Shown here: piece after piece, positions 32,678-56,327 of the stretch
Numbering within the stretch: position 1 is the first letter of the stretch
Layout: each line of letters starts with the position of its first letter
From: Heliocidaris erythrogramma
Lineage: Eukaryota; Echinodermata; Echinoidea; Camarodonta; Echinometridae
Assembly: GCA_025617745.1 (NCBI GenBank)
Contig: CM046853.1
Span: forward strand, 36,650,625-36,714,624
Length of the DNA: 64,000 nucleotides
Direction: 5' to 3'
Translations under genes and position numbers: made by a program
Notes under the pieces: generated by a model
What the model saw: only the letters and a program-made list of their open reading frames with translations
Told to the model about the DNA's origin: nothing
Database searches by the model: none

Positions 32678-33085
32678 TGGTGCTTTCTGCTTCTCAGATA
32701 ATGGCACACTGCATAGATAAGTGTTATTTCATGCTTGGAGGTATGGTACACTGCACACAGGCATATTCACTATGAATGTCGCTCATGAACACTATGATTT
32801 TCCCAGAAATTACTTTTTCTAATTTGTGTACATAAAAGGTAGTAAACAAAAAAAATTATTTGATCTACGGGTATGCTCTTTCATCAAGATATCTTAATAG
32901 AAATATTTCACCTGCAACATAATTTCATCATTTCAATTTTTTTTTCTTTCTACCGTACAGAAAAAATGGCAGATTGTCACATTAAGGGCAAGAGAAAAAA
33001 AAAATGTGGAACCTCAAACTTCCTTCTGGGAGGTTATTACCGTACATTGTAGAAAATGTGTTGTTCTTACTCCTTTACCACAATT

Positions 33086-33484
33086 AAATATATGTGGCAC
33101 ATATTTAGGATTCCAGACTGAAAGAAAACTATTACGCTAAATGCCATGTTGAGAGAGAAGTATTAAGATAGCATTAATATTTTCTTCAAACATGTAACAC
33201 CATATTTATCATCAAAATTCCATTACTGTACAATGGAACAATGAAATCACCCTCTCCCTATTTCAATTTGTTTTAAAGCCATAAAGCACATAAATATATG
33301 TGGCACATATTTAGGATTCCAGACTGAAAGAAAACTAAGATATAATGCTAAATGCCATGTTGAGAGTGAAGTATTAAGATGGCGTTAAAATTTTCTTCAA
33401 ACAAGATATTTATCATCAAAATTCCATTGCTGTACAATCGAACAATGAAATCACCCTCTCCCTATTTCAATTTGTTTTAAAGCC
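33086..33484. repeat. tandem duplication, two ~200-bp units
   Basis: The segment from AAATATATGTGGCACATATT (about 33086) to TTTGTTTTAAAGCCA (about 33283) is repeated at about 33292-33484 with small substitutions and deletions. Landmarks common to both are GATTCCAGACTGAAAG, GCCATGTTGAGAG and CACCCTCTCCCTATTTC. A local, fairly recent duplication. Confidence 0.85.
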
Positions 33485-33602
33485 AGAATTTAAAATAAAG
33501 AAATACATGGCTATAATATCTACATGTTTCCTGACGATGTCCAAACTTGCTGCAAATTATTTTTTAATTCAAAAGTATGAATGCATAATGTACATAAAAC
33601 CA

Positions 33603-33772
33603 GGGGGGTGTTTCATAAAGCTGTTTGTAAAGTTACGAATGACTTTACGAACGACTGGAATATGTTCTTGGGTGCTATACTAACCAGATTCTCAATCAAT
33701 TAGCACAAGAACTGATCACCAGTCGTGCGTAAAGTCGTGCGTAACTTGCGACAGCTTTATGAAACACCCCCC
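33603..33772. mobile_element. MITE with GGGGGGTGTTTCATAAAG ends, 170 bp
   Basis: GGGGGGTGTTTCATAAAGCT at the left and AGCTTTATGAAACACCCCCC at the right are perfect inverted ends. Inside, TACGAATGACTTTACGAACG faces GTGCGTAAAGTCGTGCGTAA. It resembles family B in its TTTCATAAA core. Confidence 0.85.
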
Positions 33773-33906
33773 AGAAACTCTTTTCCACAAGAAACTGTCA
33801 CAAATCTTTCATGATGGCGGTTTCTGCAAAACATTTTCTTGCAAAACTCGCCAAAGTTTGTTGCATGCAAAAGTTTCTGGTTTTAAAGTAGCTCTAAATG
33901 TTTTCT

Positions 33907-33912
33907 TTTATT
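33907..33912 (-). promoter_or_regulatory. candidate GPD1 poly(A) signal
   Basis: AATAAA on the minus strand about 205 bases beyond the GPD1 stop codon, a usual distance. It is supported by position only. Confidence 0.35.
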
Positions 33913-34116
33913 CTTCAAGGGATATGAAATATGAGCAGAAATGTCTTTACTCGAGATATGAGTGCAAAAAATGTCTTGTCTGGGTACAAATGGACAGGAC
34001 ATGGTTTTTATGAAGTCTTTTTGCATGAAGGGTGTGATTTTTAAATTGAAGAATGGAAGCTGGTGTTTGGGGTACATCATGAGGTGGATGATAATAATGT
34101 GAAGTGATGGTCCTTA

Positions 34117-34213
34117 TTACATATGCTCTGGATGGTCATGAAGGGATTCTATCAGCTTCGTTGGAGGAAGTCCCTCATAACAAATGTTGTAGATGGCAGT
34201 AAACAGAGGGTAT
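34117..34213 (-). CDS. GPD1: GPD1 last coding exon
   Basis: Acceptor tactttgcag. Reads [19 protein letters not shown] and ends in LHDHPEHM then TAA at 34117-34119, matching the vertebrate FPLFMAVYKVCYEG...NHPEHM end. Enters in phase 2. Confidence 0.97.
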
Positions 34214-37200
34214 CTGCAAAGTACAAATAAAAGAAAAAGATGTTATACTTTGCATGAATGTTTGACTTAACTTTTCATCATCGTGGGTGTGCAGCGTTCA
34301 AAGAAAAATTATCTAAGGTTTCAAGCCAGACTTAGCAAGATGATCATATAAAGAGATATTGCTAATGGAAGAAGGACAAGTGAACAGAAATGTAAGCTTA
34401 TGGCAAGTTATTTATATGCAAAAATGACTTCATTATTATGACTTAATACAAAGCTAAGAACACCAATGTATTCTTCAACCTTTGAAAATTCATGTTGAAA
34501 ATAAGTCCAAAAACTGATGGGGAATGAAAATGGCAGAGAACTCCTTTGAAATAACTTGCCTAGTTATCATGAAATATATGATTTTAGGGTTATTCGTACT
34601 ACAATACAAATACAATTCTTATCATTCTTCTTGAAAATAAAAAAAATCTTTTTTTAATCAATGAATGCTGACCATTTTCTTAAAACATTCCTTCCATTAT
34701 TTTTTTTATACATTCAAAGGCAAATTGTAAACAATTAAACATCTTTAGTGACAATATCCAAATGGATCCCCAAATTACGTTGTAAACTAAGATCATTTTC
34801 ATTTGGTTCTTAATAATATGCCCATTCTACCATTCAACTTAACATGTACATACATGCACAATATTCTACTCTCCTTTAATGCCCTATTCCAGTATATCAT
34901 CCTTTCTAATCAAGAATGTTATCAACCCGACCCATCTCATAGCTTTTCTTCCCACTAGAATCAATGCTATACTTACTGGTCAAGGAGATTCTTTGCCTTG
35001 AGCATCTGATGAACTTCATTTGCTGTCTGAGGTCCCTGAAGTTTCTGACCTTTCAACATCTCCTCCTCTAGCTCCTCAATTGTCTACGGGTAAAACAAAG
35101 AAATTTGAATCACATGATAATTTCAATACTGGACATTTTGAACAATAATTTGAAACATAGTTTTTGTATGAAAATAAAGATGACATTCAAAGGCATTTGC
35201 ATTCTCATACATACACTTTATAAGAAATAAATTTTTTACTACATGAAGATGAAATTCATATTTTCACATGAGGACATATATAAACACTGTAAATTCTATC
35301 AAAAGTATGAAAGAGGATTGCGGAAAATTGCAATAAATGGGCACACTAAATCCCCTAAGCGCCTCTAATGATACACTGTCTAGTACAGCATTTCCTGCAA
35401 TACAGGTCTCTGCTCTATCAATAGGCTGGCCAGGTCAAGGATATACTGACTCAAATGGTCTCATTATTCATTAACTAGATCACCATGGTAAGCTGTAGTG
35501 GTTGTTTTAGTGAATGTAGAATTTTTTGGCCTAATTGTTAGTTGAATAAAGTGTGCATGTCTGATGAAAAAAAACCCTCCTAAAGAATAAATCTACGAAC
35601 ACTACATTCATCAATAAATTTCATTTCTTGGATATACTTGTCCAGGCCAAACTTCAAAGATATCAATGCTTGTTTTTAACACAGGATATAAACACAACAA
35701 AAATAGTAACTCCCCCTTAATCAAAATTGCGTAACTTTTTAAGATTTTGAGCAGAATAACTTGGCAGGAGTGTTCCTACACTTATTAACTTTTCTGTGAA
35801 AATGAGATTGATCCATTGAGTCATGCATGAGTGAGCAAACAGTAAAGGCAAAATTGTCACTTTTCAAAAGTTACAAGGGCCATTTCGGGTATTCTGTGAA
35901 ACAAGGTTTTTTAGCGCATTCGTTTTTTTGATGCATATTTATGTGTTGTTATTGTTTATTATCCATCGCTTAACCCCCTCACACCTATTCCGACACTTTT
36001 CTCATTATTATGGTTGGGTGAGCACAATTTAAATAAAGATATTTTTACCAAAATTTATCATCACATGTGTGAACATAAGAGGTCAACTTGTCATGGTTGA
36101 TGGTTGAATGAGCACAGTTTAAAAATCTTGCAAGAAATGCTAAAATGTACTGTTAATACACCATTAAAAAAATGACCCTTGTGACTTTTGAAAAGTGACA
36201 TTTTTGCCTTTAATGTTTTCCCACTCATGCATGACTCGATGGATCAATCTCATTTTTATAGGGAAGTTAGTCAATAAGCGTAAGAATACTCTTGCCAAGT
36301 TATTTTTCTCATAACCCTTTCGTTTAAGAAGTTATGTCAGTTTGATTAAGGGGGGAGTTACTTTTTTTGTTGTGTTTATGAACATTTTTAATTTGTATCA
36401 TCACCTTGAATTATGCATAAATCTGATATTAGAAAAAGACATATTGAATCCTTATAAAACAGAAATGGAATTCTTGTTTATCTTTATTTTCTGGATGAAT
36501 TTTCATAAAGGCTTAGTAAAAAATATGTCATTGTATTAAATTATAAATTCATTTTATATAAACATCTCATTATCTGCTGGGTTTTAATTGTCATTTTGTG
36601 GTTTAAACCAATTTTAAATGATTATTCTTTTTGTCATAGAATCAACTATAGTTAACTATTTTGATAGACTGATCATTTATTCATACCTTTCCTGTCGTGA
36701 CAAAAGCTTCAGCCACCCTCCTATTCCTGCCTCCATAGCATGTTGTGATGAGGTCAGCAACACCACAGCTCTCCAGGAACGTTGCCTTGTCAACATTCTT
36801 GTAGAACGTCTCTGCAAAGGATACCATCTCCATCAGCCCCAGACGGATGATAGCAGCCTTGGTGTTATCACCTAACTTCAGACCATCTATGATGCCTGCA
36901 CCAACTGCTACAATGTTCTGCAGCATAAAATGTGATAACAATATAAAAGCTTGCCATTTTGTTTCTTTTCCAAACAAATAAAGTGTAGGCAAATTTAAAC
37001 AGATATAATTCCTTTAAAGTATACTAGAAAATAACGAAAAACGTACATGAATTATGGGAACTTTACACATTTAAAATCATTTTGATTACTATGATGATGA
37101 ATAACTCAGAAGGTAGTTATGATTCTGTTAACATTGACAATATACCCTTTTCAGTGTATATACTTTTCAGCGATTTTTAAAGTTTTGATGGTCAAACAAT

Positions 37201-40200
37201 GCATTAAAAGATTGATAAATTATTTAGAAAAATTACCTTAGCAAGTTTCTCTCAAAAGGTAGTCCCATTGTAACTTGAGATTACATTGTAATTTGAGATT
37301 ACATTGTAATTTGAGATTACATATGACTTTTCATGATGAAAGAAATATTTACCTTTAATGCTCCACATAGTTCCACTGTGTTTTCATCTTCTACTACAAC
37401 AACTCTGAAGTATTGTACTTCAAACAGTTTCTTGAGGAGGATTCCCTTCTCCTTGTCCCTGCAACCTGTAAAATATCAAAACAAAACATACATGACTATA
37501 ATCTTGAAATGACACTACACTAGAGAGCCAGAGGACTAGTATCATGTGAATAGGAAGATACATGAAAAGCACTACAGAGGGACTAAAGGAGCAGCCATTT
37601 CACATAATATCTTACTTGGAGTTTAAAACGGACCACAAGTATGCTAGCCCGAGTTTACTTTAATACCATATCTTACTATTACCAGTACTGTTTTAATTTT
37701 TGTTTACATGTATACTTATACAGTGAAACCTGTCTACAAAGACCACTCAAGGGAGACAAGAAAAGCGGTCTTTATGAGCAGGTGGTCTTTATGTACAGGT
37801 TCCTTTAATACACATTTCAATGAGAAACACTTTTCAATTCAAGGGAAACAAAAATTGTCTTTATAGACAGAGAGAAGAAGGCAGGGTACCCCCCACCCTT
37901 CAAGCAGTGGATAATAAACCAGCATTGTTTAAAAAAAAACAAGCCTGTCTTACCAATTGTTGTCTCACAGAACTTCTCAGCAGCTACCTCTGGTGCCAGA
38001 TTAGCTCCCATGAGTACATGACAAGGTATCCCTCCCAGGTAGGATGAGATCATCTCTGAGATTAACTCTAATCCTTTATCCTTGATGTGTACACCCTGGA
38101 TGTAGATTGGAAACGATAAATAGAAATATCACTGTTTAATTTCAATATCATATGGTCAAACCTGATGTACAATGTAGACCACTCAGAGTGAGGCCAAACC
38201 AGTGATCTTTGGTAGGCAGGTAATCTCCACAGGTTTCAATGAAAGACAATGCTAAGGGAATCTAATGATCGGTCTAATGGTCTGGTAGAGCACTGGTCAT
38301 GTAATCCAGGGTCCCGGGTTCGAATCCCGGTCGGGGCATTGTAATTTTCTCACATTTACTTTCTTTATGATACAAGGATAAGAGAAATATTTCATTTTAT
38401 GACCATTAATGTCATATATTTCTGTATTTCAAGAAACTTTATTTCCTACAGTACATGTATTAGTTCAATGTTGAAAATGGGTACTGTCATTCGGAACTAC
38501 ATGTACAATTACGTGCATATCAAGGGAGACTCAAACGTGCATTGTAATGTACATGCACATGTACATTACCAGTAATGTTAATGTACATGTACATGTAAAT
38601 TAATGAAAATGCATGTTTTCATTACAGACATGTCAAGTGTGATAAGAATGCTTCCTCATATCCTCTAAAACGAAGCCTAAATTATCTAGACAGATCTGCA
38701 GGAAGGAAAGGGCAATGATTGATTAGCTGCTCCTAATAGTGTTAAAGTATCTACTGTTCATAATAGATCAGTCTATGGACAAACAGCATATTGATAATTC
38801 ATCTTCATTGTGTGAAATTAAGCTTCAAGATACCATCTCTGCTAATAGAATGATAAGAACAGTACTACAAATCCCACACAACAACACCAAAGCAGCCAAA
38901 AACTCATTCGCATATGCTGGACTGGCCGTCTGGAAAACTCTAAAACAACATATATGATACAGAAGACACTTTCAAAAAGAAACTCAAATTCAAAACCCAA
39001 CTTTTTCCATCATAATTGATCTAGTTCACATCATCAGCCATAGAGCTGGTTATTTGGTTTTAAGTTCTATTACCTAATACCTTTTTGGCTCTTGGCAGAC
39101 AAAAATGCCTATACATGTACATTTAGATGCCATTTTTAAAGAATATTCAAATATCACTTCATTCTTTGTGTATCCATTAATACTCTAATTTCTACTACTA
39201 TTTGCTGTGTTGCTGTGTTGCTGTGTTGCTGTTATTACAATTAAGGACATTATTTTTCTATTGTAATAGCACTCTGATCAGTGATCTGTAAAAGTGCTTA
39301 ATAGGAATTTTTATTATAATTATTACCATTGTTATTATTAATGCTCTATTACACCCTTTATCACTAAATTTACATTTCTGTTTGACTTCAACTATCTATT
39401 CACTCTTGCATTTTACTCTGAGTGAAAGACAAAAAGCTTTGAGTACATGTTTTTGATATTCTCCAAAATTTTGTTTGGGTTATCTTCTTTTGTCTGAATT
39501 AAAAAGAAATGTATTACATTGATTATTTTGAGTATTATTACATCCAACCTAAATGAAAAGCAAACCTTTCAAATTTATGTCTTTATAGAAATGTGGTCAA
39601 AAGTAATGAATAATAATGTAGGCCTAAAAAATCTATGGAAAATTGCAAATAAGATAAATTTCAGTTTGATTTAAATTTAGCTTTTGAAAAAATAATTGAC
39701 AGAAATGCTTCGGGACAGATTAGTTGTAAACATGCAAGCTCTGTATAGGAATTTTTGCGATATAGGATACTTTCCTCGCTTCATAACAAACTTTGGACTC
39801 ACACTGTGCGTTTCTTTTCAATGTCCACATGTTTATACTCCACATCAGCTTTATCAAATTCTACTCATGAATTTAATTTACAAAATCTACAGCGTTGGCA
39901 TGTTTTACCAATTTGCGTATCCAGTTGAATACAAAAGGCAAAAAGAAAGAAAGAAAGAAAAGACCCCCCCCCCCCAACAAAACAAGCAAAAAATGGACCA
40001 CATGTATTAACAAAAGATGCAAATATGATTACAAGAGTCAAATAAAGAACATGGTATACAGATATTAAACAACTTGTATACAAGTCTGAAGTCCATTTCA
40101 ACTTCTGTGGCAAGTCTTGTATGGCATAAATTTAGTTTCCAACATGTCCATGTACCTTTCATGTGCATTCTTGTTTCTACTCATTACTTTTTTTTGCCTA

Positions 40201-43200
40201 GAATATGTATTCGTTTCTACTTTTTTGCCTAGAACGTGCGCTTCCCAACAATTACCGTTTTTTAAGAACGCAATAAAACTGAATTCCTTGATTTCCTTCA
40301 GTTTCTTTAAGTGACAACAGCTATATAATATCAATTCTGGGGGTTTCACAAATTTGTAATATTTTTCTTTAAATATTTAAAATCAAAAGACTTTATGAAT
40401 CTAGCATACATTTGTAAGATGAAGCACATGTAAGTATAATTTACTTTAGTCCTCACAAACAATACACATGTTAACCCTGTATTTTAGTACTTTTTCATGG
40501 TGATTTTTCACCACAAAGTCCACTGTAACCCAAACAGAACAATACTTGTTCAAACTGAAACATATGTGATTCCCATGCAAATACATGTAGCAGACAGCAG
40601 TTAGGTTAAACAAGAGTTCATACGGTTACCTTAAAAATTACATAAATTAATTGATACGATGTGAATGTTAAGGTCCTGTTTACATAGTGTGCATGTAAAC
40701 ACTGCAAACTGAAATCTTGAAAACGCACTCCAGGAGAAAATCATTCCTACACAAGAAATGTTTACCTCCATGTTGATATTTCTTTCTGGTTTATCACAGG
40801 GCATTAGACCCTGAAAATAATATATCACATGAATATTATCTCAGTTCTCATGAAATAACAAATTTTAGTATTAAAACAAAGATTTCAACCCCTTTTGGCC
40901 TTTATTGTCAACCCCCAAGCACACATTATCATTGAGTTAACTCATTCCCAACCATTGGGTTTTTGCCAGAATATACTTTTATGCTCTTTGCAAAATTGTA
41001 GTCAGTCACACATTAATCCATATATGTTACAGGACACAATGAATAAATATTTGAACAAAAATGATATACAAAACAAAATATAATACTTTGCTGTCTACTG
41101 GAGAAAAATGTTTTCTTTGTGAAAAAGGTGAAGAAAATATGAATTTAAGGAATTAATCACAACTCCATCTAAGTCAAATGTGTTAAATTAGCAGCATTGA
41201 TTCATTGATTCATTAGACATTTGAAAGTAATGGTGATTCTTTTATTAACATATTGCTCAAAGTAACTTAAGTCACATAAGAATGCATGATCTGAAAATAA
41301 TAAAAATCGCAAATAAATCATGTAATTACTTTATCTCGGCCCTGTATTACAAAAAGTTGTGATTGATAGCAAATTTAATTTGAGACAGACTGGAGGATTT
41401 TTTATCGATTCTGATCAATCGCAACTCTTTATAAGACAACGGCCCGTTGGTTATTAAAGTCACCTAGAAGTCAATATTCATAGAACAGGTGAGAAACAAT
41501 AAGACATGAAGTATGAGCAGAACAAAAATTAATGCAGTCAAACTAAATTGAAAGAAAGAAAGAAAAATAGGAACTTGCTTACCTTAATAAGTGAGATGGC
41601 GATGGTATCTGGGTCTATTTTTCCCTTCAATGACTCGCAGACCTTGGGGACAAACTGGTGAGGTAGAACAAAGATAAGTAACCTCGCTCCCTTTGCTGCA
41701 TCAACTACATCAGGAACAGCAACCTAGGAATACATGAGAGAATAGATCAGTCTTGAAGTCTTAACTCTGTCATTAATCATAAAAGTGAGTATCTGTGATA
41801 TCTTATTTACATGTAACTATGACTGGCATAAAAAGACTTTAATTCCTTCCATGCCATGGGCAGTAAATCCTGCCCAAGCAAAATGTATGTTCTACTTATT
41901 AGGACTAAAATAAACTCCTGTTTTTTGCCTGAGACAGAAATAGGCACATGTGAAGATTGTTCTGAGGGAACATACATGTATGTGTATCTTACAAATTTCA
42001 GTGAAACAGAAAGCGTCAAATTTTATGCCTAAAAGCTAATTTTAGGATTTTTGTTGGTTGAAAATGACTGGCACAGAAGAGGTTAAAGATGAATAGTTGA
42101 ACTCTAGGTGATATCTCCTATTACATAATATACATTACTGTATCTTGTTACCTTATCATATATCAATTATATTCATGTACACACAGAGTATGTTGTGACA
42201 TGCATGCGCTCCTTATCTTCCGATACTATTACTTTGCACGAGAGAAAAAAACACCAACTTCTCAAACTTCTAGATCAAAGGTAAACAGGGACTTGCATTG
42301 TAAAAAACAACTAATCCATAAAATGGCACCACATGAAGCTATTCAACAGATTCTATTCCAACAGTGTACAGACTTGACCTTCACCCCAACAAAAATAAAT
42401 TCAGTTTGAATACATAGGTATTTATTCTGATTTTTCTTTTAACATTTCTAAAAATCAAAATATTACTTTTGAAATCTAAGCTAACAATCTGCAGCACTAG
42501 CTGGCAAATAAACAAACCCTTTACTCCAAACTACCCAAAGCATCATGATGCATTCGTACGTTGACACTGATGGATATAGCAAGCTGTTATGATTAATCAT
42601 GTGTATCTAATAGACACGGACAACAAATGTTTCACCATTTGTGCCCTACAGATGTACTGGTAGATTCACCTGGGAAACAAGTGGAGCAATGTATAAATAG
42701 GACAGTGTATGCATGCAGGCATGCATACAATGCTATTAACCCTTTCAAGACAATTGACCACATTTTGACGTTTTGCTCAATAACTTTCGATCAGAGCTCT
42801 AAAATATATGACAAATGCATGAGTAGAAAGAGCAAAAAATTCTGCACATACTTGTTACATGACCATACTGGGTTTGATGCCAGGAATTTAAAACAAAGAG
42901 CTTTAAAATCCTTAGATTGGCCACACAATGAGAGGTTCAAAATCATTGTTTTTTATCAAAATTGGCAATTTTTTAAAACCATGTATATTGTTTTCAAACA
43001 CTTTAGACCTTATTAGAACCATGTAGCACTAACAGAAAAATATTGTTGCCAATTTGAAGAACAAAATGATCAATTTAGCCCTCAAATAGTTCCTGTCCTG
43101 AAAGGGTTAAAGTGGACTTACATATATCTCTCAATTGTGTGGCAACTACTGATAATCTCAAACACTAGAGGAAAGCAAACTCACAACTTTTCATTTGTGC

Positions 43201-44007
43201 ATTACATAACATATTTCACACATTAAATAAAAAGAACAAAAAATGACTATTGATTGTCACATGATAATCAATATGACAATACATTGTCCACGGGTATATA
43301 TTTCCACATAGAACTATGTCAGATCAGGACGCTTGTGAAGGTGCTCAATAATTAGAAGTACAGTGTATACATATAACTTTCTAGATAATGTAACTTTCCA
43401 GGAAAGAAGATAAATATCTAAATCACTGAATATTGTAAGCTATGCAGTATACATGTAGGTATATTGTCTGAAATTATTTGCAATGACCATGATACATGTA
43501 GATTTTTTTAAAAAGAAATATCATTCTCAGTAAATTACATAACTTTAAAAGAACCAAATAAAGATTGGTGAGAGGTTCATGGTTATAATTGATATTATAA
43601 CGGCAATCAGTCAATTTATTTGGCTAACATCACCAACAAATATCCACAGATTTTAATCATAAAATTTAGTTAACTTCTCTCTATTTTATTTTTCTTTTCT
43701 TTTCTTGTGCTTGATTATTCCTGTACTGTTTAACTTCCTGAGCTTTTTAGAAGCTTTCCAGAGAGCGTTACATGAAATTCATGTGTACTGAGCAGGGGCT
43801 GACATGTGGACTTTGATCATTCAACCTACCACATTATCAGGTAGAGTGTGTCCAGGGAGGTACTTCTCATTGACGTGGGTTTCATTGATGATCTCCGTCA
43901 AATTCTTCCCATTCACCTTCTCCTCAAACACCCACATGGAAACCTCATCTTCAAACTCGGGATGCTTCTTGGCATTCACACCAACAATCCTGGAGATGGC
44001 CGAGCCC
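34117..44007 (-). CDS. GPD1: cytosolic glycerol-3-phosphate dehydrogenase, NAD-dependent (first exon missing)
   Basis: The enzyme reduces dihydroxyacetone phosphate to sn-glycerol 3-phosphate with NADH, feeding glycerolipid synthesis and the cytosolic arm of the glycerol-phosphate shuttle. Seven core exons and one 45-nt exon were found. The Rossmann half continues from [11 protein letters not shown], through the PHQF and SLIK motifs (Lys120 in human GPD1), to [11 protein letters not shown]. The C-terminal half holds [10 protein letters not shown] (Lys204 and Asn205), [20 protein letters not shown] with the substrate-binding Arg-Asn, and the end NHPEHM-like HDHPEHM. Residues from visible core exons total 335; with about 14 from the first exon (M...GSGNW) this gives 349, the human length. 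With the 45-nt exon it would be 364. The first exon was not found within the window. GPD1 and GPD1L are not distinguished; most invertebrates have one such gene. Confidence 0.95.
34214..34976 (-). other. GPD1 last intron
   Basis: AT-rich; nothing recognisable. Confidence 0.6.
34977..35083 (-). CDS. GPD1: GPD1 penultimate exon
   Basis: Acceptor ttacccgtag, donor gtaagta. Encodes [20 protein letters not shown] then [15 protein letters not shown], matching SIEQLEKELLNGQKLQGPET. Leaves in phase 2. Confidence 0.97.
35084..36686 (-). other. GPD1 intron with fold-back MITE
   Basis: Holds the 686-bp inverted-repeat element at 35691-36376. The rest is AT-rich without recognisable features. Confidence 0.65.
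35689..36378. mobile_element. 686-bp element with ~200-bp inverted arms and TA duplication
   Basis: 35691-36376 begins AACACAACAA and ends TTGTTGTGTT, with TA on each outer side (35689-35690, 36377-36378). Matching arms run about 35691-35895 and 36165-36376: GTAACTCCCCCTTAATCAAA faces TTTGATTAAGGGGGGAGTTA, and GAGATTGATCCATTGAGTCATGC has its counterpart. The ~270-bp centre repeats a GTTG(GGT)GAGCACA(A/G)TTTAAA phrase. The TA duplication suggests the Tc1/mariner superfamily; no transposase. Confidence 0.85.
36687..36917 (-). CDS. GPD1: GPD1 exon with substrate-binding motif
   Basis: Acceptor tatgctgcag, donor gtatgaa. Encodes [36 protein letters not shown] and [20 protein letters not shown]. 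It contains the conserved Asn205 equivalent, the Thr-Thr-Cys-Tyr segment and the GGRNR phosphate-binding arginine. 231 nt, phase 0. Confidence 0.98.
37268..37321. repeat. three 18-bp tandem copies
   Basis: ATTGTAA(C/T)TTGAGATTAC three times in the intron between GPD1 exons. Confidence 0.85.
37353..37465 (-). CDS. GPD1: GPD1 exon
   Basis: Acceptor tattttacag, donor gtaaata. Reads (G)[19 protein letters not shown] then [18 protein letters not shown], matching CKDPAQGQLLKELMQTPNFR and VDTVEICGALK. Ends on the catalytic Lys204 codon. Confidence 0.97.
37721..37803. mobile_element. inverted-repeat MITE relic, right of exon
   Basis: ACAGTGAAACCTGTCTACAA with AAAGACCAC at the left; GTGGTCTTTATGTACAGGTT at the right. 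A related piece lies at 38155-38244 (ACAATGTAGACCACTC...CACAGGTTTCAATG). The two flank the GPD1 exon at 37954-38095. Confidence 0.5.
37954..38095 (-). CDS. GPD1: GPD1 exon
   Basis: Acceptor ctacatccag, donor gtaagac. Encodes [20 protein letters not shown] then [20 protein letters not shown] and KFCETTIG, matching GVDEGPNGLKLISEVIGERL and VLMGANIASEVADEKFCETT. Enters in phase 0, leaves in phase 1. Confidence 0.97.
38155..38244. mobile_element. inverted-repeat MITE relic, left of exon
   Basis: ACCTGATGTACAATGTAGAC at the left and GTAATCTCCACAGGTTTCAA at the right are imperfectly paired and resemble the element at 37721-37803. Confidence 0.4.
38267..38338 (+). pseudogene. tRNA-Thr(UGU)-like pseudogene or SINE head
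   Basis: A perfect T-arm (CCCGGGTTCGAATCCCGG), an anticodon arm CTGGTCATGTAATCCAG resembling tRNA-Thr with UGU, and TGGTAGAGC as partial A-box. The 3' end TCGGGGCA has no complementary 5' acceptor strand, position 33 is A instead of U, and the anticodon stem has a T-T mismatch, so a working tRNA is unlikely. It lies in a GPD1 intron on the opposite strand. Confidence 0.6.
38739..39030 (+). pseudogene. LINE reverse-transcriptase C-terminal remnant
   Basis: The frame ends in [19 protein letters not shown]. After a frameshift it continues as [17 protein letters not shown]. This is the pattern that closes many non-LTR retrotransposon ORF2 proteins (F-x-x-AG-x-x-W-N-x-LP-x-x-I ... F-K-x-x-L-K-T-x-L-F). 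The upstream part is short and without catalytic motifs, so it is a 5'-truncated decayed copy. The clade is not assigned. Confidence 0.6.
40766..40810 (-). CDS. GPD1: GPD1 45-nt in-frame exon, probably alternative
   Basis: Acceptor ttattttcag, donor gtaaaca, open in phase 0, encoding [15 protein letters not shown]. It falls between the exon ending in SLIK and the exon starting GVHIKDKG. Both it and the following exon begin with Gly, so either junction gives SLIK-G as in all GPD1 enzymes. Including it adds 15 residues directly after the catalytic lysine; excluding it restores the usual length. It could also be a chance pair of splice sites. Confidence 0.6.
41334..41455. mobile_element. decayed MITE, family B-like
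   Basis: CGGCCCTGTATTACAAAAAG at the left and CTTTATAAGACAACGGCCCG at the right are imperfect inverted ends. GTTGTGATTGATAGCAAATT faces GATCAATCGCAACTC. It resembles the GGGCCC family by structure. Confidence 0.5.
41583..41723 (-). CDS. GPD1: GPD1 exon ending at the catalytic lysine
   Basis: Acceptor tattcctag, donor gtaagca. Encodes [35 protein letters not shown] and AISLIK; the last residue corresponds to Lys120 of human GPD1. 141 nt, phase 0 both sides. Confidence 0.98.
41724..43829 (-). other. GPD1 second intron (2.1 kb)
   Basis: Contains the TTAACCC MITE; the remainder is AT-rich with no recognised feature. Confidence 0.6.
42736..43110. mobile_element. MITE with TTAACCCTTTCA ends, 375 bp
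   Basis: TTAACCCTTTCAAGACA at the left and TGTCCTGAAAGGGTTAA at the right are inverted ends. Interior phrases such as TAGAAAGAGCAA, GCATGA and GAGAGGTTCAAA recur at 56690-56930, a second, decayed copy. An open frame of 129 codons overlaps it, but nothing suggests it is coding. Confidence 0.75.
43830..44007 (-). CDS. GPD1: GPD1 exon 2, NAD-binding region
   Basis: Acceptor ttttcctag, donor gtaggtt. Its first base completes a Trp codon. It then encodes [38 protein letters not shown] and [12 protein letters not shown], matching GSAIAKIVGGN and MWVFEEDIGGKKLTEIIN and KYLPGHKLPPNV. The missing exon should supply M...GSGN. Confidence 0.98.
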
Positions 44008-44070
44008 CTAGGAAAAGATTAGAAAAAGGATTCAAATTGGAAACATGACTAAGAAATTATTAGGGGAGGA

Positions 44071-44325
44071 ACCCACAGAGACCTCACCTTCAAACTAAGG
44101 ACGCTTCTTAAGCCTCCTTCATAAATGTGTACATGTATTGATGTGCACAGCTACGTTTCTCATCCCCATTTGCAATTCATTTAGTACAAACACACACAAA
44201 CACACACAAACACACACCAAAAAAACCCCAAACAAACACTGAGGTAACCGCAGCATACAACTGTATGTGAACGAGCCTTTATGATTCACACCCATGATCC
44301 TGGCAATGGCTGAGCCCTTGGAACA
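44071..44325 (-). pseudogene. decayed partial duplicate of GPD1 exon 2
   Basis: Two blocks resemble exon 2 in the same order and strand. 44282-44320 reads GSAIARIMGVN after an AG (gttccaag), and 44071-44115 resembles the [15 protein letters not shown] segment but with a stop codon (TAG in place of GAG). About 165 bp of other sequence, including ACACACAAACACACAC, separates them. It is non-functional as it stands. Confidence 0.75.
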
Positions 44326-47317
44326 AGACCATCAAAGAGAGAGTGTGTATTTTAGACATGAAACATGACCTGCAGGGAGATATTCAGAACATCAATCTTT
44401 GTCAACATAAACAAGTGACTATATATCTCCTTCTTCTTAATAGTTTGCAGATACAAACCCTTGTCAGATCTATACAACCATGTAGAAAACTACTATTTGT
44501 ATCTATTCTAGGCCCACTGCTGTTACTTCTGTAAAACTGGTTAAGACTTGACTCAAGGCAATGTAATGAATGTATTTGTCAATCAAAGTGTCAATTTAGA
44601 GTCTGCATGCAGACTACCTTCCTCACAGAGTCCATTCCTAGCATATACTTTCTATACTAAATATCAAATATCATATACATGTAAGATGAAAAAACCACCC
44701 AAGTTCGAACCAGTGGGGTCCTACTCAGATTTCCCTGTGATCCCCAGGCACAGCTATTTCCAGGGCAACTATACAAAACAATAATCCTATTTGCCCAGTA
44801 GTCTACAGTTCAAACTACAGAGATGCAACTCCCTGGTCAAACCAATTACATGTGAAAATTTGATTGCTAGTCATATAATCATAAATACAATTTTGCCACT
44901 CACAGACCTACAGTACATGTAGAAGGAAAGTAGATTGTATTATAAGGGGGGAAATGGGACGTAGGGAATGTGGGAGCTATAATATAAGGGTGAGAACTGA
45001 GGGAGGTAGAGGGCAAATACATGGAGTAGGATATATTGAAAACTATGCATCTAGAAATATGTCTGTTATAACTATTGTGAAATATGCATTTATGTCATAG
45101 AATAATGTATTCTTTTATCTAGACACCTTCATAAAGGAGATATTCTCTAATTTCTGTTCTCAGTGAAACATTTCATCATGCTAGTAAAAGTACCCGAAAG
45201 CACTTTTGTTGAGTGATTGTACTCAAATTCATCATATAAATTTAGAGAGATACTTTGTCAGAGCATTGTGACAGAATGGAACAGGTATGCTATTTCAAAT
45301 CACATTCAACATATGCTCAAGTCCAAGGTTAAGTACTAAATTCCTAATAATTCAAAGGATGTATCATAATTATGACCTGTAACCCAGCAGCAACCTATAC
45401 TGCAGTAAATGACTTCACTTTTCCACTCTTCTTACCAATCATCATTGAGTGTAAGTTATATAGGGGAGGGATTCCAATTGAAACTTGTCACATTTTTCAA
45501 TCGTGAACTGAAATACAAATGAACTCTCTCCATCTCAAAGTATTCGTGCTTGAAATACACGTAGTAACAAAAAGTTACTTTAGTTTACAATATTTAACCA
45601 CTGAACTCCACAAAAGCACAATAAAAGAAAAGTAAATAAATATCCTTGGATTTGGAAGTTTAAGGCACATGTAATGTACATGTACATTAAGACTTTTATT
45701 TTGTTTGTCCATCAATTCAAGCTCCACATCATATGAACAAAAATTTAAGAGTGCTCACATACAATATGTACAAAGCGATTCATTAGGCACATGTACAGCA
45801 CAGTAAGCGATTCCGTTGTTCAGTCTTCAGATACATTTAGTAGAGAGTAGCTTTTTTAATCATGATAAACTGAACTACATACAGAACTACATATGGGATG
45901 AATCTATGAACTTCTTTTTGAGATTCCTAATAACCACAAAATACATATTACTGGTACCATTACATTCACCGCAAAGCAGGGTATTTAAAGGCTTAAGCTA
46001 ATCTTGCATTCTGATATTAAACTTGACTACAATTTAAAAAACAATAGGCACATTCTGAATTGTTTTTCTTGCAGCAGATGGGTTATTTGAACTGGCAAAA
46101 TATAAATGACCTAACCCAAAATTGCTTAAAATTATGTTTCCTAAATCCCACAAGGCATGAGATCGCATGTTGCAATGTACATGTATGCATGTAGATGTAA
46201 GACCAGACTAACACATGAAGCATAATTTCCATAAAATTCTTTGCCCGTCACTTGGCTAAATTTCTGGCAAAAGTATTCGGCAGATCTCATTTACTTCAGT
46301 TTTTCAATTGTTAGCCAATACCAAAGCTACATTTTACCAAATAAGGAAAAGTCAACACTGATTACAAGTTTGTTTTAAAAGAAACAGAAAAAATAAAGAA
46401 ATAGATCAATGAAAGTTTGAGCAAAATTTGATGAGGAATAAGAAAGTTATGAATTTTTGAAGTTGTAATCAATCTAACACAAATTGGCAACACCGTGACA
46501 TATCTTGCAAGCTCCTCTCCCATTTGCTCAGTAGAGCAAATCTCATAAATTTTCATTTTCTTAGATTTTGATGAAGAAATAGATGTGTTTCATACATGTA
46601 CATGTTTCTTGTAAGGTGGAACCCATATATTAAGGTGCATGTATGATTGAATATTTTCTGTAATAGAGAAAATGGAAAGTAATAAGTTTTGTGATACATG
46701 GCAAATGGGAGGAGAGCTCACAAGATACGTCATGGAGTTGCCAATTTGTTAGATTGAAGCCCTGAACCATGATGTACCACTTCTACATGTACATGTACTT
46801 CCAAATATTACTGAAGAAACGTGACTATCTATTTGTTCAGGTCAAAAGACCATCTACGTGTACATGTACATGTTGACTTACATGTACAGTCAAGCTCTCC
46901 TAAGTCAATCATGACGGGACTGAGTGAAATGTGTCGACTTGTGCGAAGTCGAAGTAAATCCGACATACATGTACGCGTGTATACATAGCACAGGGACACG
47001 GGCGGTACGGAATGTGGCTAGCGGCACGGCGGTTTGATCGATTGGGGAGTTCTCATCACATAATGCACCATGATATTATATTGTGTTGACATACATGTAC
47101 TGTACCTTTCATGTACCCAGAATATTACTTCACACTCCAGTTACAAGTTGGACAATAAAGAATAAAACCAGACACATCCAGTGATTAATTCCAATGTATT
47201 AAATCCTCCCTTACATCCATTTATATGCACATGGCCGTGAAGGCAATAAAACTGCATGCAGGTACGGTGTCCGTCCGGCCAGCCGTGCAAGCATGAACAT
47301 TTTGTTCTGGCTTTACA
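44326..47317. other. upstream of GPD1 exon 2, no gene found
   Basis: Expected to be part of GPD1 intron 1. No exon encoding the N-terminal GSGNW sequence was found. It contains a dispersed hairpin repeat at 46381-46762 and several ACATGTACATGT motifs. Confidence 0.5.
46381..46762. mobile_element. dispersed hairpin repeat, related to 3995-4500
   Basis: AAATTGGCAACACCGTGACA and CTCCTCTCCCATTTGC near 46485-46525 face GCAAATGGGAGGAGAG and GAGTTGCCAATTTGTTAGAT near 46700-46758. The left flank holds AAGAAAGTTATGAATTTTTG as in the 4-kb copy. Confidence 0.6.
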
Positions 47318-49099
47318 TGGGACAGAAAATACCAACTATTTTTGCATGCATATATCGTAGTGGTCAATATGACCACTACAATATATGCATGCAAAAATAG
47401 TTGGTATTTTCTGTCGCATGTACTAAAGGTATGGGGGGAAAATAAGATAAATATTTTAAATACTTGCTTTCAAATTCAGCCCTTAAAAATCTCACTCCTA
47501 CCTCAAATGGCCGTTAGGAAGAAATTTTGATATTTCCAGCAAAATCCAAAGTCAAAAATATGTCCAAACCCGGAGAAATCCCCGCCAATTTGTTTCGCGA
47601 TCGTGTGTTGTTTACATACCGCCGATGTCTTTTTTTTTTTTTTTGGTCCACGAAGAAACTCGGGATCACAAGCGCACATCGATCTCTATGATCGCGCGCA
47701 CAGAAAATCAGGACTTTTCCGTGTACGTCATAGGGACCGATGTTGGAGCCAGCGGCGACCAGGAAATGTACACAAGGACTCCGATAGCTCGTTTCGCGAG
47801 AATCGACAGTAAATTAGGATTTCATTTTTGGAATTATCTCTTCCACTTATACATCTACACATGTACAAGCTTATCTGAAGATAACCTTGTACTCCAGACT
47901 AGCTTTTACGGGTGAATAGGCTTCAATAGCTTTTGTGTGTATCAGCAGGCCCTTTTCCAGGCTAGATCATTCATACAGGAGAGGAAAATTATTTAAAATT
48001 TCACTTTCAAGTCTGAATCCCTACATTTGTGGCAAAGTAAGAGTGGAAGAGTCCCTGAATCAGGTAATCTAGCAAATTTAAGAAAATTAAATCTTGTTTA
48101 GAGCAATTTTGTAGTCTGCTTTTGACTGCTGCAACAGTGAATGTTGGACACTGTCCCACATAGGCAAGGGCCTATGAGTGATCTCTTCCAACATCGGTGA
48201 GTTGAATTTATTGTATTTCTTGGATATGTTGGTGTCGGTTTTTGTAAATTAAATGCCGATTTTGAGTGAATGCTGGTGACTTTTGTGCAGTGGTGTTTTA
48301 AAAAGTTGAGGTGTATGACTGCCTAGATTCTACACACGAAGTATAGGAATGTAGCCATGAGCATGATGAGAGCCAAGTGGACTAAACGACCACACCACAA
48401 AAGGCACAATGACCCACTCATAGCTACATTCCTATACATCGTGTGCAGAATCTAGGCAGTCATACACCTCAACTTTTTAAAACACCACTGCACAAAAGTC
48501 ACCAACATTCACTCAAAATCGGCATTTAATTTACAAAAACCGACCCCAACATATCCAAGAAATACAATAAATTCAACTCACTGATGTTGGAAAAAATTCA
48601 AAAAATGTAATCTGTAATTTACTGTCGATTCTAGCGAAACGAGCTATCGGAGTCATTGTGTACATTTCCTGGTCGCCGTCGTTGCTGACATCCCCCAAAA
48701 TAATTTTGTCCCTATCGCGTACACGGAAAAGTCCTGATTTTCTGTGTGCGCAATCGTAGAGATCAATGTGCGCTTGCGATCCAGAGTTTCTTCGTGGACA
48801 AAAATTTTATTGGCCGATTTAAGTCTAAGACATCGGCGGTATGTAAACAACACGCGATCGCGAAACAAATCGGCAGGGATTTCTTCGGTTTTGGACATGA
48901 TTTTGAGTTTGGATTTTGCTGGAAATATCAAAAGTTCTTCCTAACGGCCATTTGAGGTAGGAGTGAGATTTTTGAGGAGTGAGATTTTTAAGTATTTAAA
49001 ATATTTATCTTATTCCCCCCCCCATACCTTTAGTACATGCGACAGAAAATACCAACTATTTTTGCATGCATATTTCGTAGTGGTCAATATGACCACTAT
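47318..49099. mobile_element. 1.7-kb fold-back element made of two inverted units
   Basis: The left arm (about 47357-48350) and right arm (about 48415-49099) are inverted copies of one ~650-bp unit, with a ~60-bp centre. Both ends carry TAGTGGTCAATATGACCACTA, itself a palindrome (47358-47378 and 49079-49099). An extra half-terminus at 47318-47356 makes the left end a ~100-bp perfect hairpin. The left arm is interrupted by a ~335-bp insertion at about 47850-48180. Each arm carries the same reading frame (MSK-x-x-EIPA-x-LFRDRVLFTY). Single units recur at 50762-51393 and 57848-58470. Confidence 0.8.
47843..48191. mobile_element. nested insertion with ~10-bp duplication
   Basis: Within the left arm the sequence ATCTCTTCCA occurs at both ends of a ~335-bp segment absent from the right arm and from the two single-unit copies. 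That is the signature of an insertion with target duplication. No poly(A) tail, long terminal repeats or clear inverted ends were seen, so the type is unassigned. Confidence 0.6.
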
Positions 49100-49186
49100 T
49101 CGTGGTGTGCAATGACCAAGTATTTGAACTTTGAATTAATACTAATAAGGCAGTGTATACAGCCACACGCGTGTGTGTTTACCATC

Positions 49187-49206
49187 CAGCCACACGCGTG
49201 TGGCTG
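49187..49206. repeat. CAGCCACACGCGTGTGGCTG palindrome cluster
   Basis: A perfect 20-bp palindrome at this position. Related pieces occur at 49160-49175 and 49231-49243 in direct and inverted order, forming a subterminal repeat array of the TTAA element. Confidence 0.8.
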
Positions 49207-49368
49207 TATCCGAACCACGTATGGCTGGATACAGCCACACGCCGGCATTAACACGTACCTTTTTATCACCACGTATTAAGCCTGAGTCGAATCGATTGGT
49301 TTGACTACCATAGCCACCATGAAAAAATAGAAACTCTGTAACGTACAGCATATATACTAGCAGAGAAC

Positions 49369-49782
49369 GTGAAGGCGACTTCAAACTGTTGGCTAACTTT
49401 CGCTAATTCGCTCGCGGAGGACGTCGCGCTTTACCTGTGCTTTCTCTATGGAAAAATCGTTTTGTCGTTACGAACTGAAGTTTACGATAATATTCTTGCA
49501 CTCTCTCTGCATTGTCAATTTGACAATTGTATAATTGAACATGATAAATACAGGCATGAGTACGAGTGTTCCTACTTAATTCGCAATAACTATATCACAC
49601 TCTCATCAAATTGGCAATTACTTCTTGGAAATGATCTGAAGCTGAATGAAGTCATGAGCGACGAAAAGTTTATTTCGTTTTTATTTTTGCATCGAACAAA
49701 CGTGTTCCATTCAGCTCTCCAAAGACAAAGTAAGATTATTAATTCTTTGAATTTGAATCATTGTCGGATGTGTCGACAATGA
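49369..49782 (+). other. 137-codon open frame inside the TTAA element, unknown
   Basis: The longest open frame in this element, starting MKATSNCWLTFANSLAEDVA and ending with a Cys-His segment NLNHCRMCRQ. Base composition is richer in CG dinucleotides than nearby DNA. No transposase catalytic motif was recognised. It may be a fragment of the element's former protein or a captured exon. Confidence 0.3.
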
Positions 49783-50110
49783 GCATCGCTTCGTGCGACA
49801 CTAGAGTGATATTTTGGCTAGCCATACGGACTAGAAACTTAAGATTTTGGCTAGTCCGTCATGATTTTTACTAGCCATTGGCTAGCGGGCTATCGTTAAT
49901 GTCGAGCAGCGAGAGCCCCATACATATGCCCGCGATGCCAGCGGACCGGTCACCGGGGCATGGTGCATGCACTGCGTGCAACTGTGTGCAACTCTGTTTT
50001 CACCGCCCATCATTTATCGATGCACCGGTATTCGACCGAATCAAAGCCGTCGAATCCCGGATTATGAAATATTCGATATGACTCAGGCTTACCACGTATT
50101 GTAAGTATAT

Positions 50111-50671
50111 CACCGTCATCACAATCAAAATAACCTCATTTTTTCATTTAATTCTTACATTCTACGCCACTTGAATGATTTCAATTTCATTCTCACCGTC
50201 TTCTCTCCCGGATTTTCTAGTCTTGTTACGAAGGTTCGTCTGTTTAACAGCAAATTTTCACACTTTTTCTACTTATGTCATGTCCATTCTGACTTGCTTT
50301 TGCGACGGGTCTGTCAGTCTGCGTAAATAATGTGCATGTATTATGTACCGTACTGTGTATACGGTGCAGGCATAAATGGCCACAAGTCATGCACGCACAC
50401 ATCAGGCATGTACGTACCGGTACATAATACATGCACATTATTTACGCAGACTGACAGAGCCGTCGCGAAAGCAAGCGCTAGCCGGAATGGGTATGACATA
50501 AGTAGAAAAAGTGAAAATTTGCTGTTAAACAGACGAACCTTTGTAACAAGACTAGAAAATCCAGGAGAGAAGACGGTGAGAATGAAATTGCAACGATTCA
50601 AGGAAATTAAAGTGGCGTAGAATGCAAGAATTAAATGATAAAATGAGGTTATTTTGATTGTGATGACAGTG
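50111..50671. repeat. 560-bp inverted repeat, ~240-bp arms
   Basis: CACCGTCATCACAATCAAAA at the left pairs with TTTTGATTGTGATGACAGTG at the right. Pairing continues through GACGAACCTT(T/C)GTAAC... and CAGACTGACAGA to a centre of about 75 bp near 50355-50410. The arms differ by scattered substitutions, so it is not an assembly mirror. The right arm abuts the right end of the TTAA element. Confidence 0.85.
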
Positions 50672-50761
50672 TGTATACACTGCCTACTAATATTAAACGT
50701 CTAATAAACGTGTAATAAATCATGTAAATAGTGGTCTCGTTATCTTGACCTCGACAAGGCT

Positions 50762-51393
50762 TTAGAGCACTCATAGCTACATTCCTATACTTCGTGTGTA
50801 TAATTTAGGCAGTCATACACCTCATCTTTTTAAAACACCACTGCACAAAAGTCACAAACATTCACTCAAAATCGGCATTTAATTTACAAAAACCGACCAC
50901 TAAATATCCAAGAAATACAATAAATTCAACTCACCGATGTTGGAAAAGATATTTCCAAAAATCAAATCCGTAATTTACTGTTGATTCTCGCGAAACGAGC
51001 TATCGGAGTCATTGTGTACATTTCCTGGTCGCCGCGGGCGCTGACATCTCCCCAAAAGAGTTTTGTCCTTAAAAATTCGGTCCCTATGTGGCATACACGG
51101 AAAGTCCCGATTTTCTGTGTGCGCGATCGTAAAGATCGATGTGCGCTTGCGACCCCGAGTTTCTTCGTGGACAAAAATTTTATTGGCCGATTTTAGTCTA
51201 AGACATCGGCAGTATGTAAACAACACGCGATCGCGAAACAAATCGGCGGGGATTTCTCCGGTTTTGGACAAGATTTTGACTTTGGATTTTGCTGAAAATA
51301 TCAAAAGTTCTTCCTAACGGCCATTTCAGGTAGGAGTGAGATTTTTAAGTGCTGAATTTGAAAGCAAGTATTTAAAATATTTATCTTATTTCG
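50762..51393. mobile_element. single unit of the fold-back family, copy at 50.8 kb
   Basis: Begins ACTCATAGCTACATTCCTAT and ends TTTAAAATATTTATCTTATT, as do the right arm of 47318-49099 and the copy at 57848-58470. On the minus strand it carries the frame EIPADLFRDRVLFTYCRCLR and further HEETRGRKRTSI. A GTGAGT donor-like site lies downstream at 50929-50934. The ATG present in the fold-back copies is TTG here. Confidence 0.75.
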
Positions 51394-51424
51394 GAGCAAC
51401 TATAGAATACCCTACCACGATGAC

Positions 51425-52480
51425 TTTAGGTTCGTAGGTCAACCTACGGACCTACGTTGAGACCTACGTTGTCAGGATATAAGTAATCATAGCCTACGGA
51501 CCTACGGACCTACGTTGTCAGGATATATAATATCATAGTCTACGGACCTACGGACCTACGTTGGCAGGGTGGCAGTAATATTATAACCTACGGACCTACG
51601 TTGTCAGGATATAAGTAATATGAAAGCCTACGGACCTACGGACCTACGTTGCCAGGGTGGCAGTAATCTTAGCCTACGGACCTACGTTGTCAGGTGTAAG
51701 TAATAAGGAAGCCTACGAACCTACGTTGTCAGGATATAACTAATATGAAAGCCTACGGACCTACGGACCTACGTTGCCAGGGTGTCAGTAATCATAGCCT
51801 ACGGACCTACGGACCTACGTTGTCAGGTGTAAGTAATAAGGAAGCCTACGGACCTACGTTGTCAGGATATAACTAATATGAAAGCCTACGGACCTACGGA
51901 CCTACGTTGTCAGGATATAAGTAATCATAGCCTACGGACCTACGTTGCCAGGGTGGCAGTAATATCATAACCTACGGACCTACGGACCTACGTTGTCAGG
52001 TTATAAGTAATCATAGCCTACGGACCTACGTTGCCAGGGTGTCAGCAATCATAGCCTACGGACCTACGTTGTCAGGATATAAGTAATATCAAAGCCTACG
52101 AACCTACGCACCTACGTTGTCAGGGTGGCAGTAATATTATAACCTACGGACCTACGGACCTACGTTGTCAGGATATAAGTAATATCAAAGCCTACGAACC
52201 TACGCACCTACGTTGTCAGGGTGGCAGTAATATTATAACCTACGGACCTACGGACCTACGTTGTCAGGATATAAGTAATATGAAAGCCTACGCACCTACG
52301 TTGCCAGGGTGTCAGTAATCATAGCCTACGGACCTACGTTGTCAGGATATAAGTAATATCAAAGCCTACGAACCTACGCACCTACGTTGTCAGGGTGTAA
52401 GTAATATGAAAGCCTACGGACCTACATTGCCAGGATGTCAGTAATCATAGCCTACGGACCTACGTTGGCAGGGTGTAATT
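51425..52480. repeat. minisatellite, 24 units built on CCTACGGA
   Basis: I counted 24 units ending CCTACGTTG(T/C/G)CAGG. Each begins with one or two CCTACGGA octamers and ends with a variable spacer (ATATAAGTAAT, GTGGCAGTAAT, GTGTAAGTAAT) followed by ATNATAG or ATGAAAG. Units run roughly 35-55 bp. Higher-order alternation of long and short units is visible. No coding potential evident. It starts about 30 bp after the single-unit copy at 50762-51393. Confidence 0.92.
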
Positions 52481-52624
52481 ATTATTATTATAAGTAATAT
52501 AACCTATGCGTTGTTGTAATCTTTTAAAGATATCTTCATTTTTTAATAGCAAACAAGCATTTCATAAAATTTTATTCTTACTAGATATTTTTTTTTGGTA
52601 CTATTATGTTATACAATAACCATA

Positions 52625-53285
52625 TAGGCCTATATATTGGGTTTTGAACGAGACAATGCCGTTTTATTGTTTTGATTTTTTTCTTTTGTAATTTTAGAAC
52701 AAGTTTTTCTTTTGTAATTTTAGAACGAGATATCATATACCGGTACCCATGTTATCGATATGTGCCATAAAAATGCTTGTTGGAAGATACATACCGTTTT
52801 AAGATAACTTTTATTTAGCATGAGTTAATAGAATATTGAACGATTATTATTTGTTTTAAGTACATTACTATTATGATGTATAATAACATTCTATAAATTG
52901 GGTTTAGAACGAGACAATGTCGTTTTATTATCTTGATTTATATATTTTTTCTTTCGTATTTTTAGAACGGCATGAGTTAATAGAATTTCGAACAATTATT
53001 ATTTGTTTTAAGTACATTAGTATTATGATTCTATAAATTGGGTTTAGAACGAGACAATGTCGTTTTATTACCTTGATTTATATTTTTTTTCTTTCGTATT
53101 TTTAGAACGAGACATCATATACCGGTACCAATGTTATCAATATGGGCCATAAAAATGCCTTGTTGTAACGTTTTAAAGATATCTTTTATTTAGTATGATT
53201 TATGTATATTGAACAATTATTGTAGAGGGCACCTTCCATGCACATCTGTGTCTACATGTACGTACGGCCTTGAATATCATCTCCC
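52625..53285. repeat. dispersed repeat J, copy 1 (internally duplicated)
   Basis: The phrase GAACGAGACAATG(T/C)CGTTTTATT occurs at about 52647, 52907 and 53048. The family end GATTTATGTA...GAACAATTATTGTAGAGGGC and CACCTTCCATGCACATCTGT follows. Copies 2 and 3 are at 55706-56030 and 57165-57420. Confidence 0.75.
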
Positions 53286-55705
53286 GAAAGTGCGGAAACG
53301 TCGAAAAGGGTTTAGGAATTATAAAGACAGTGAACGGAATCTTTCAAGAATATATGTGGATAGGTTTCTGAATGAATGCGGATTTTAATACCTATTTTGC
53401 ATTCCGCATCTTGTTCGCGGCCTATTCTTCATTTTGAATAGATCTTAATACTCAGTACGCTGAGTTATTGTTTTATTATCATTTTTATCTGTTGCCTAGC
53501 AATTCGCAATTTGAGATCGGGATATCCTTTATTTTCTGTAAATTTTTACTTGTTGCGACCGTTTGAAGTCTTTGCTTGGAGTTTGGTTTACCGTATATAA
53601 CATTTCTAAAATAGTGAGATGTGCGCCAAGTTTGACAAATCATAATTGCCAGTAGTTTATCATTTTTATAGAGTTTCTCTATTTTCTAGGATGAACACTT
53701 TAGGCCAACCAGTTAAAATTTGAAGTTTATCTAAATCGGCAAAATTATATATTATACTTGAATTCTTTTTAATAAATCATGATATTTTTTTGTGTGTGGT
53801 GATATATTACATTGAGGTATTTACTTTTTAAAGGAATAAACATGTACAAGAAGGAAAATGCAAAAATTGTTTTAATGCAGTCATAAATTATTGAAGAACG
53901 TAAACTTTGATCACAACAGTGCTTCATGTGTATTCGTTACGATCGTCGTACATTTTTTCTCTGTTATCATATATAGGGGCCTATACATTGTATCTCACTC
54001 AAGCCCGTTACTAGAATTTTATGAGAGGGGGGGGGGGGGGGTGTCCAGACTGTCCTCCATACGTCATAATGCAGAGGGTTCGTTACTCCTACGGTTCCTA
54101 ATTCCGAAAGTTTAATAGAGCCCTACATAACTTTTCGGAATTACTTAAACCCTGTTTCTTTTTACTACTTTATGACCTTTCCTTTTTTTTTGAGAAGTTC
54201 CGGACATCTTACAGAAAGCGACGAGGGTTCTGTTATCATTATTCGAATATGCGAAGCCCCTTTTTCAGGCGCGTGACTAGGGAGTGGTAGTGGGGGCGGC
54301 CTCCCCACGAAACGTCAACTAAAAAAAAAGAAATTAAAAAAAAAGGAGAACGCAAAAAAGGGCGGAAGTGAAAGAAAAAACCTATATGAAAGGGCGCTAC
54401 TAGCCGTTATCTTTCTCTAAAAATTTGTAACATACAGTGCAGTATTGCATCAAAATAATTGAAAAGCAGTTCGGGCGTCGAACCCCACTTTCCGCCTTAA
54501 AAAGGGTTCTTCGAGCAGTCATCTTTTGCGCTTCGCACGTACGGGAGGAGAGGGGGCTCACCCCTGCACCCACCCCTTTTACATACCCCCGCCATGAAAT
54601 TAAATCCTGGCTAAGCGGCATTTGAATAACCAAAGAAACTAAGCTGTAATAATGTACATGACTTTGTATCTGATAGGCTTATTATTTGTATTTTTTAGAT
54701 TTGTTTCGTGCTTGCACAAAACTTGCTATATAAACATTTCCAAATCAAACCCGGCACCCCCCTCTCGACAGTGGTTTTGAAAATCAAGATTTTGTATGCA
54801 TGTTCATCAGTCTCGTAATGTACATTATCACATTCAGAGGTGACGAGAAACAAAATGCATAAATTACTTGTACTTGCGTTCTTTTCGCTCCGCAAAGCGA
54901 CCGCCCTTTGATGGTGAAACCGACATTTTGCGCGCTATTGTAAACATGTCAATCATTCTGGTCGTGTGAATGGTATGTGACCTCTTTTCGTCAGCATGCC
55001 TTTTTCCTTCCACATCTACCGCGCACGAATATAATGTAATCTGTCTAACACATGATTATCGATTTTTCTCTCTCTCCTAAATCACGCGCTTGTATGATAA
55101 TCTCGGCTGAGTTCACGTTCTCTCTGCTAAAGAAAAACAGTCTCTGTTTCCGCTATATTGATTGCATTTTTTTTAAAGTCATAACTGCCTCTTGTAAAAT
55201 TAACGCCCTGACAATTTTTTCTCTCCTAAATCACGTACATGTATAGGGCCTATCATAATATCGAAAGCTGAATTTCATTTCTGTATACTCTTTCCTTTTT
55301 ACTTGATTAAAAGCGATGGGAACAAAAAAGGTTAATGGGAATATTATTTTACCCTGCTCTAATTATTTAAAAATGTGTATCTACGGCTTCCTAAAATCTA
55401 AATTTCTTTTCTTTTCCCCATGTCTGCAGGTTATGGAAGTATATAATCCGCCCCTTTCAAAGAACAAGAATTAATGAAGCACCTCCTCAGGCCCCTGCAC
55501 GATACGATTATTGATTTTTTTTTCTCTCTCTCTCTCCCTATGTTACGGGGGTGGCAGGGGGGCCCACCCGCCAACCCTCCCGCGCAAAAGCTCTGACGTT
55601 TAATAGCAAATTCGAGATAAAGATAACGGTAGGCGGAAAGTACGCCCGGACTGATTTTCAACTGACTTGTGTTTAGACGCAATGCTGCACTGCATGTAAC
55701 AGGGT
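53286..55705. other. gene-free region
   Basis: AT-rich with a poly-G run (54027-54040), A-rich tracts near 54318-54345 and short open frames. No recognised gene or family member. Confidence 0.5.

Positions 55706-56296: not shown

Positions 56297-56297
<1 letters not shown>

Positions 56298-56327
<30 letters not shown>

Follow-up and report, generated by a model that had tools for sequence, protein, structure and literature searches.

The GPD1 locus and the candidate segment

The minus strand of the window, the whole 64,000-nt stretch of Heliocidaris erythrogramma DNA analysed here, carries a GPD1 gene with exons 2–8 inside it: exon 2 at 43830..44007, exon 3 (VAVPDVV...SLIK) at 41583..41723, exon 4 (GVHIKDKG...CETTI plus G) at 37954..38095, exon 5 at 37353..37465, exon 6 at 36687..36917, exon 7 at 34977..35083 and the coding part of exon 8, with the stop, at 34115..34213. 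The coding part of exon 1 (53 nt, minus strand) lies outside the window, at 74117-74065 on the window's scale, and is separated from exon 2 by an intron of ∼30 kb. It consists of MSNESAPRKVCIVGSGN plus TG, which, followed by gtgagt, is present in one of six upstream 9.9-kb stretches. Its ATG is the start by assumption, because the nine codons that precede it contain no stop in the printed frame. With this start the joined model encodes 353 amino acids, and 368 if the segment described below is included, each with a single terminal stop; the sequence-only reading had a 14-residue first exon and lengths of 349 and 364 residues, which have to be replaced by these values.

The gene is a plain orthologue of the NAD-dependent cytosolic GPD1/GPD1L enzymes (PF01210). 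Its exons 3–6 score 280 bits against human GPD1 and 263 bits against human GPD1L, and the alignment with human GPD1 (6e8y) covers residues 74-282 and has a single gap on either side. Joined exons 2–4 match the GPD N-terminal Pfam domain at 134.3 bits (cut-off 23.1), and in a profile search of the genome exons 2, 3 and 4 each exceed this cut-off individually. Compared with the 349-residue human chain, the 353-residue enzyme looks complete without any additional exon.

Intron 3 (38096..41582, minus strand, 3,487 nt) holds the candidate cassette exon, a 45-nt segment at 40766..40810 on the minus strand that encodes 15 mostly polar residues, two of them prolines. On that strand it is preceded by tatattattttcag upstream of 40810 and followed by gtaaac downstream of 40766. 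Sequence, coordinates and strand are as first described: an open segment in phase 0 on both sides, between the exons ending in SLIK and starting with GVHIKDKG, with the AG and GT flanks and the frame-preserving length expected of a cassette exon. Likewise, both the segment and exon 4 begin with Gly, as had been stated, and a hydrophobic residue follows in each. The same intron contains, at about 38265-38340, a tRNA-like stretch with a GGTTCGAATCCC box B and, by eye, a possible TGT anticodon loop; ARAGORN calls no tRNA there, so it is perhaps a tRNA pseudogene or the head of a SINE.

Splice sites and codon content

Splice sites were scored with a generic metazoan matrix. The candidate acceptor scores 6.4, against 6.9–11.7 for the seven other GPD1 acceptors in the window, and the candidate donor, whose positions +5 and +6 are A and C, scores 7.2, against 7.0–11.2 for the six other donors. 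Among the GPD1 sites in the window the acceptor thus ranks last of eight and the donor last but one of seven, which does not sustain the initial description of both sites as good. Counting the candidate's own sites, nine acceptors and two donors of intron 3 reach these scores.

The codon content of the segment is neutral. With GPD1 as the training set its log-odds for coding over intron is –0.13 (density ratio 1.44); 909 of 11,010 open intron windows equal or exceed this value, and 52 of 322 exon windows fall as low. After five more exons were added to the training set the log-odds became –1.67 (density ratio 0.66); 2,304 of the 11,010 open intron windows are then as high and 53 of 491 exon windows as low. 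The only TGCATG within 500 nt of the segment, 187 nt downstream, is unremarkable as a splicing-factor signal at a strand density of 0.73 per kb.

Chance expectation for such a segment

We counted as equal to the candidate any segment of 21–300 nt whose length is a multiple of three, which has no stop in phase 0 and whose acceptor and donor both equal or exceed the candidate's in score. As the null we used 3,487-nt introns (n = 400) generated by a third-order Markov model of the GPD1 introns and of 44400-63900. When both site thresholds were applied, 6.8% of these introns (P = 0.068; mean 0.072) contained at least one equal candidate; by the summed site score alone the proportion was 26.8%. Neighbouring DNA (six stretches, both strands, possible real exons included) contained five equal candidates in 118,812 nt, two of them no longer than 60 nt, which corresponds to 0.147 per intron-3 length and to 0.37 over the ∼8.9 kb of GPD1 introns 2–7; more would be expected once the 30-kb intron 1 is counted too. 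The plus strand of the window (64 kb) yielded three, or 0.16 per 3,460 nt, and 13 when only the summed score was required (0.70 per 3,460 nt). Across the Markov introns, the neighbouring DNA and the plus strand, an intron of this size thus has 0.07–0.16 candidates that are equal or better.

Lengths of 30–60 nt are rarer, with one match on each strand (0.05 per 3,460 nt), the minus-strand one being the candidate itself. The minus strand as a whole has 14 phase-0 rows: three overlap GPD1 exons, ten overlap putative exons of a TMEM245-like gene, and the remaining one is the candidate. No equal candidate was found in the other five introns between GPD1 exons 2 and 8. The segment is therefore mildly unusual for a single intron and unremarkable when many introns are screened.

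Active-site context and search for related copies

The lysine of SLIK, the last residue of exon 3 and residue 124 of the 353-residue model, had been equated with human Lys120, and it does align with residue 120 of 6e8y. Within the aligned human residues 74-282, K120, K204, D260 and R269 are all identical, and their active-site roles are treated in the available passages of PMC12874384. According to these passages K120 of the human enzyme is a first-shell residue, touching DHAP at its C-2 oxygen and its C-1 hydroxyl, with D260 holding the lysine, and the K120A substitution raises the barrier by 5.3 kcal/mol (see also passages of PMC11148179). If the exon is real, it was correct to say that it inserts directly after the active-site lysine and that Lys-Gly-hydrophobic is kept either way. 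Among 1,416 non-exon AG sites of the GPD1 region, 55 are followed by Gly and only 22 by Gly and then V, I, L, M or F. This retention, although spotted only in hindsight, is the strongest individual argument that the exon is real.

The insert lowers the match to the GPD N-terminal Pfam domain from 134.3 to 125.7 bits. In a PDB search with the insert, the alignments of the nine GPD relatives begin no earlier than query residue 24 and thus reach no more than the final two residues of the insert; a tenth match, to a fluorescent protein (E 0.95), is noise. No insert after K120 is present in the residue-level alignments with human GPD1 entries and GPD1L (four for exons 3–6 and five from the search with the insert). 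Fifteen residues straight after K120 would probably disturb the contact with DHAP.

A protein search of the genome itself returned eight matches, all at the GPD1 locus, the eighth (E 0.10) being the candidate segment, and all three matches of the Pfam search of the genome lie within the same gene. With matches confined to this gene, the genome searches, which score only their top candidates (9 of 9 in one, 12 of 12 in the other) and could miss a diverged copy, revealed no paralogue or processed copy that might report the splice form. The 145 nt around the segment, searched with very common words skipped, match the 1.06-Gb genome once, at the segment's own position.

Decoy exon or cassette exon

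We regard a decoy (pseudo-) exon as the probable reading of the segment, ahead of a real cassette exon. On this view a long AT-rich intron would by chance contain an open in-frame stretch whose acceptor and donor are both mediocre; GPD1 would normally join exon 3 to exon 4, giving an intact 353-residue enzyme, and the segment would presumably not be included at any meaningful level. This is favoured because equal candidates occur at 0.07–0.16 per intron, the sites are weak, the codons do not favour coding and GPD relatives barely align to the insert, and also because the 353-residue enzyme looks complete without the segment. Against it we count the Markov P of 0.068, the five other introns that are empty, the rate of only 0.05 for lengths of 30–60 nt, the position of 13 of the 14 minus-strand phase-0 rows on exons or putative exons, and the kept Lys-Gly-hydrophobic. 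Intronic pseudoexons as a class share with the candidate the exon-like segment, the passable sites, the long intron and an occurrence near the background rate; the candidate differs in also retaining the enzyme's Lys-Gly motif.

A real, weakly defined cassette exon is possible, if on balance doubtful. Its inclusion would give a 368-residue form with a long loop bordering the DHAP site, which, equally tentatively, would sit between Lys120 and the following Gly. Asp260 has to hold Lys120 against DHAP; a strong loss of activity would therefore be probable in the long form, and inclusion could then serve as a dimmer, at the level of splicing, on the sole GPD1 found. The segment is in phase, stop-free and 45 nt long, its donor is inside the GPD1 range and its acceptor slightly below it, and the stricter null gives intron 3 a P of 0.068. 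The K-G-hydrophobic sequence is retained, the segment is not a repeat, no second GPD1 was found in the genome, and the Pfam domain is still matched at 125.7 bits. The barrier increase of 5.3 kcal/mol in K120A (passages of PMC12874384) counts in its favour as well. On the other side are the weak splice sites, the neutral codon content and the recurrence of comparable candidates in flanking DNA. Taken together, splice-site and codon evidence is compatible with a weak cassette exon and also with a chance pseudoexon, the latter appearing more likely. It should be noted that the ranking of these readings and of the one discussed below is a judgement drawn from the rates, together with an assumed low prior that any single intron holds a frame-preserving cassette.

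Frame-preserving alternative exons of metabolic enzymes supported by transcripts include those of PKM and of Drosophila Gpdh, with its C-terminal isoforms. The candidate, if real, would likewise produce enzyme forms from one gene by splicing; in the known cases the alternative exons are located elsewhere in the protein. Were the segment spliced in, a central metabolic enzyme would have a cassette exon directly at one of its catalytic residues, and no paralogue of its gene was found. That the only GPD1 found makes two enzymes, with a splicing factor rather than a paralogue or transcription setting glycerol-phosphate flux through a 15-residue active-site plug, seems unlikely to us. If the segment is not spliced, the result is that in-phase open segments of 21–300 nt with passable sites arise here about once per 20–50 kb of strand. 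The titles and abstract openings listed in the literature searches name no GPD1 insert after Lys120, nor do the available passages of PMC11187211, PMC11677483, PMC11148179 and PMC12874384 mention one. Passages of PMC11677483 place a bee GPDH among genes that are alternatively spliced in the cold, with the exon unspecified there.

Resemblance to exon 4 and other origins

The segment could also derive from the beginning of exon 4, as a relic or as an incipient duplicate, which we consider very unlikely. In register, four of the 15 residues are identical, a resemblance equalled by 2.9% of free shuffles and by 1,128 of 53,290 open 15-mers of the window, and 19 of the 45 nucleotides are identical, equalled by 2,236 of 127,910 window 45-mers. 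An AG|G acceptor favours Gly as the first residue, and once this Gly is fixed the resemblance is equalled in 13.9% of shuffles and, among the 2,237 open window 15-mers that start with G, in 234. The flanks are without local similarity (score 25, equalled in 49 of 200 shuffles), and the resemblance is weak. Exon duplication has nevertheless occurred in GPD1, because a decayed duplicate of exon 2 lies in the same gene, at 44328-44078 on the minus strand, just upstream of the real exon 2. It comprises two blocks, 44328-44284 (78% to 44018-43974) and 44109-44078 (84% to 43970-43939), split by ∼170 nt that include a TG-rich repeat; inspection by eye shows a TAG stop in the second block and an acceptor AG that is out of register. 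An origin of the segment from a transposon we reject, because the 145 nt around it, searched with very common words skipped, matched the genome only at their own position.

Other features of the window

Rfam listed eight matches over 33000-46000, none above its gathering score. At 33601-33774 on the plus strand a match to MIR6217 (43.2 bits, E 9.3e–07) is well under the gathering score of 110 and probably reflects chance similarity of low-complexity sequence. Downstream of GPD1, 33085-33488 is a tandem duplication of ∼205 nt with blocks 86–100% identical, and intron 6 of the gene contains a large inverted repeat (35688-36379; arms of 100, 46 and 42 nt at 83–89%) that is foldback/MITE-like.

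The stretch 24667-10904 on the minus strand has the likely exons of a multi-pass membrane protein, which we take to be TMEM245-like. When five of its peptides were compared with Pfam, the only relevant match was of one peptide to AI-2E_transport (E 0.01), below the cut-off. A minisatellite of 22 copies of ∼48-nt units occupies 51443-52425.
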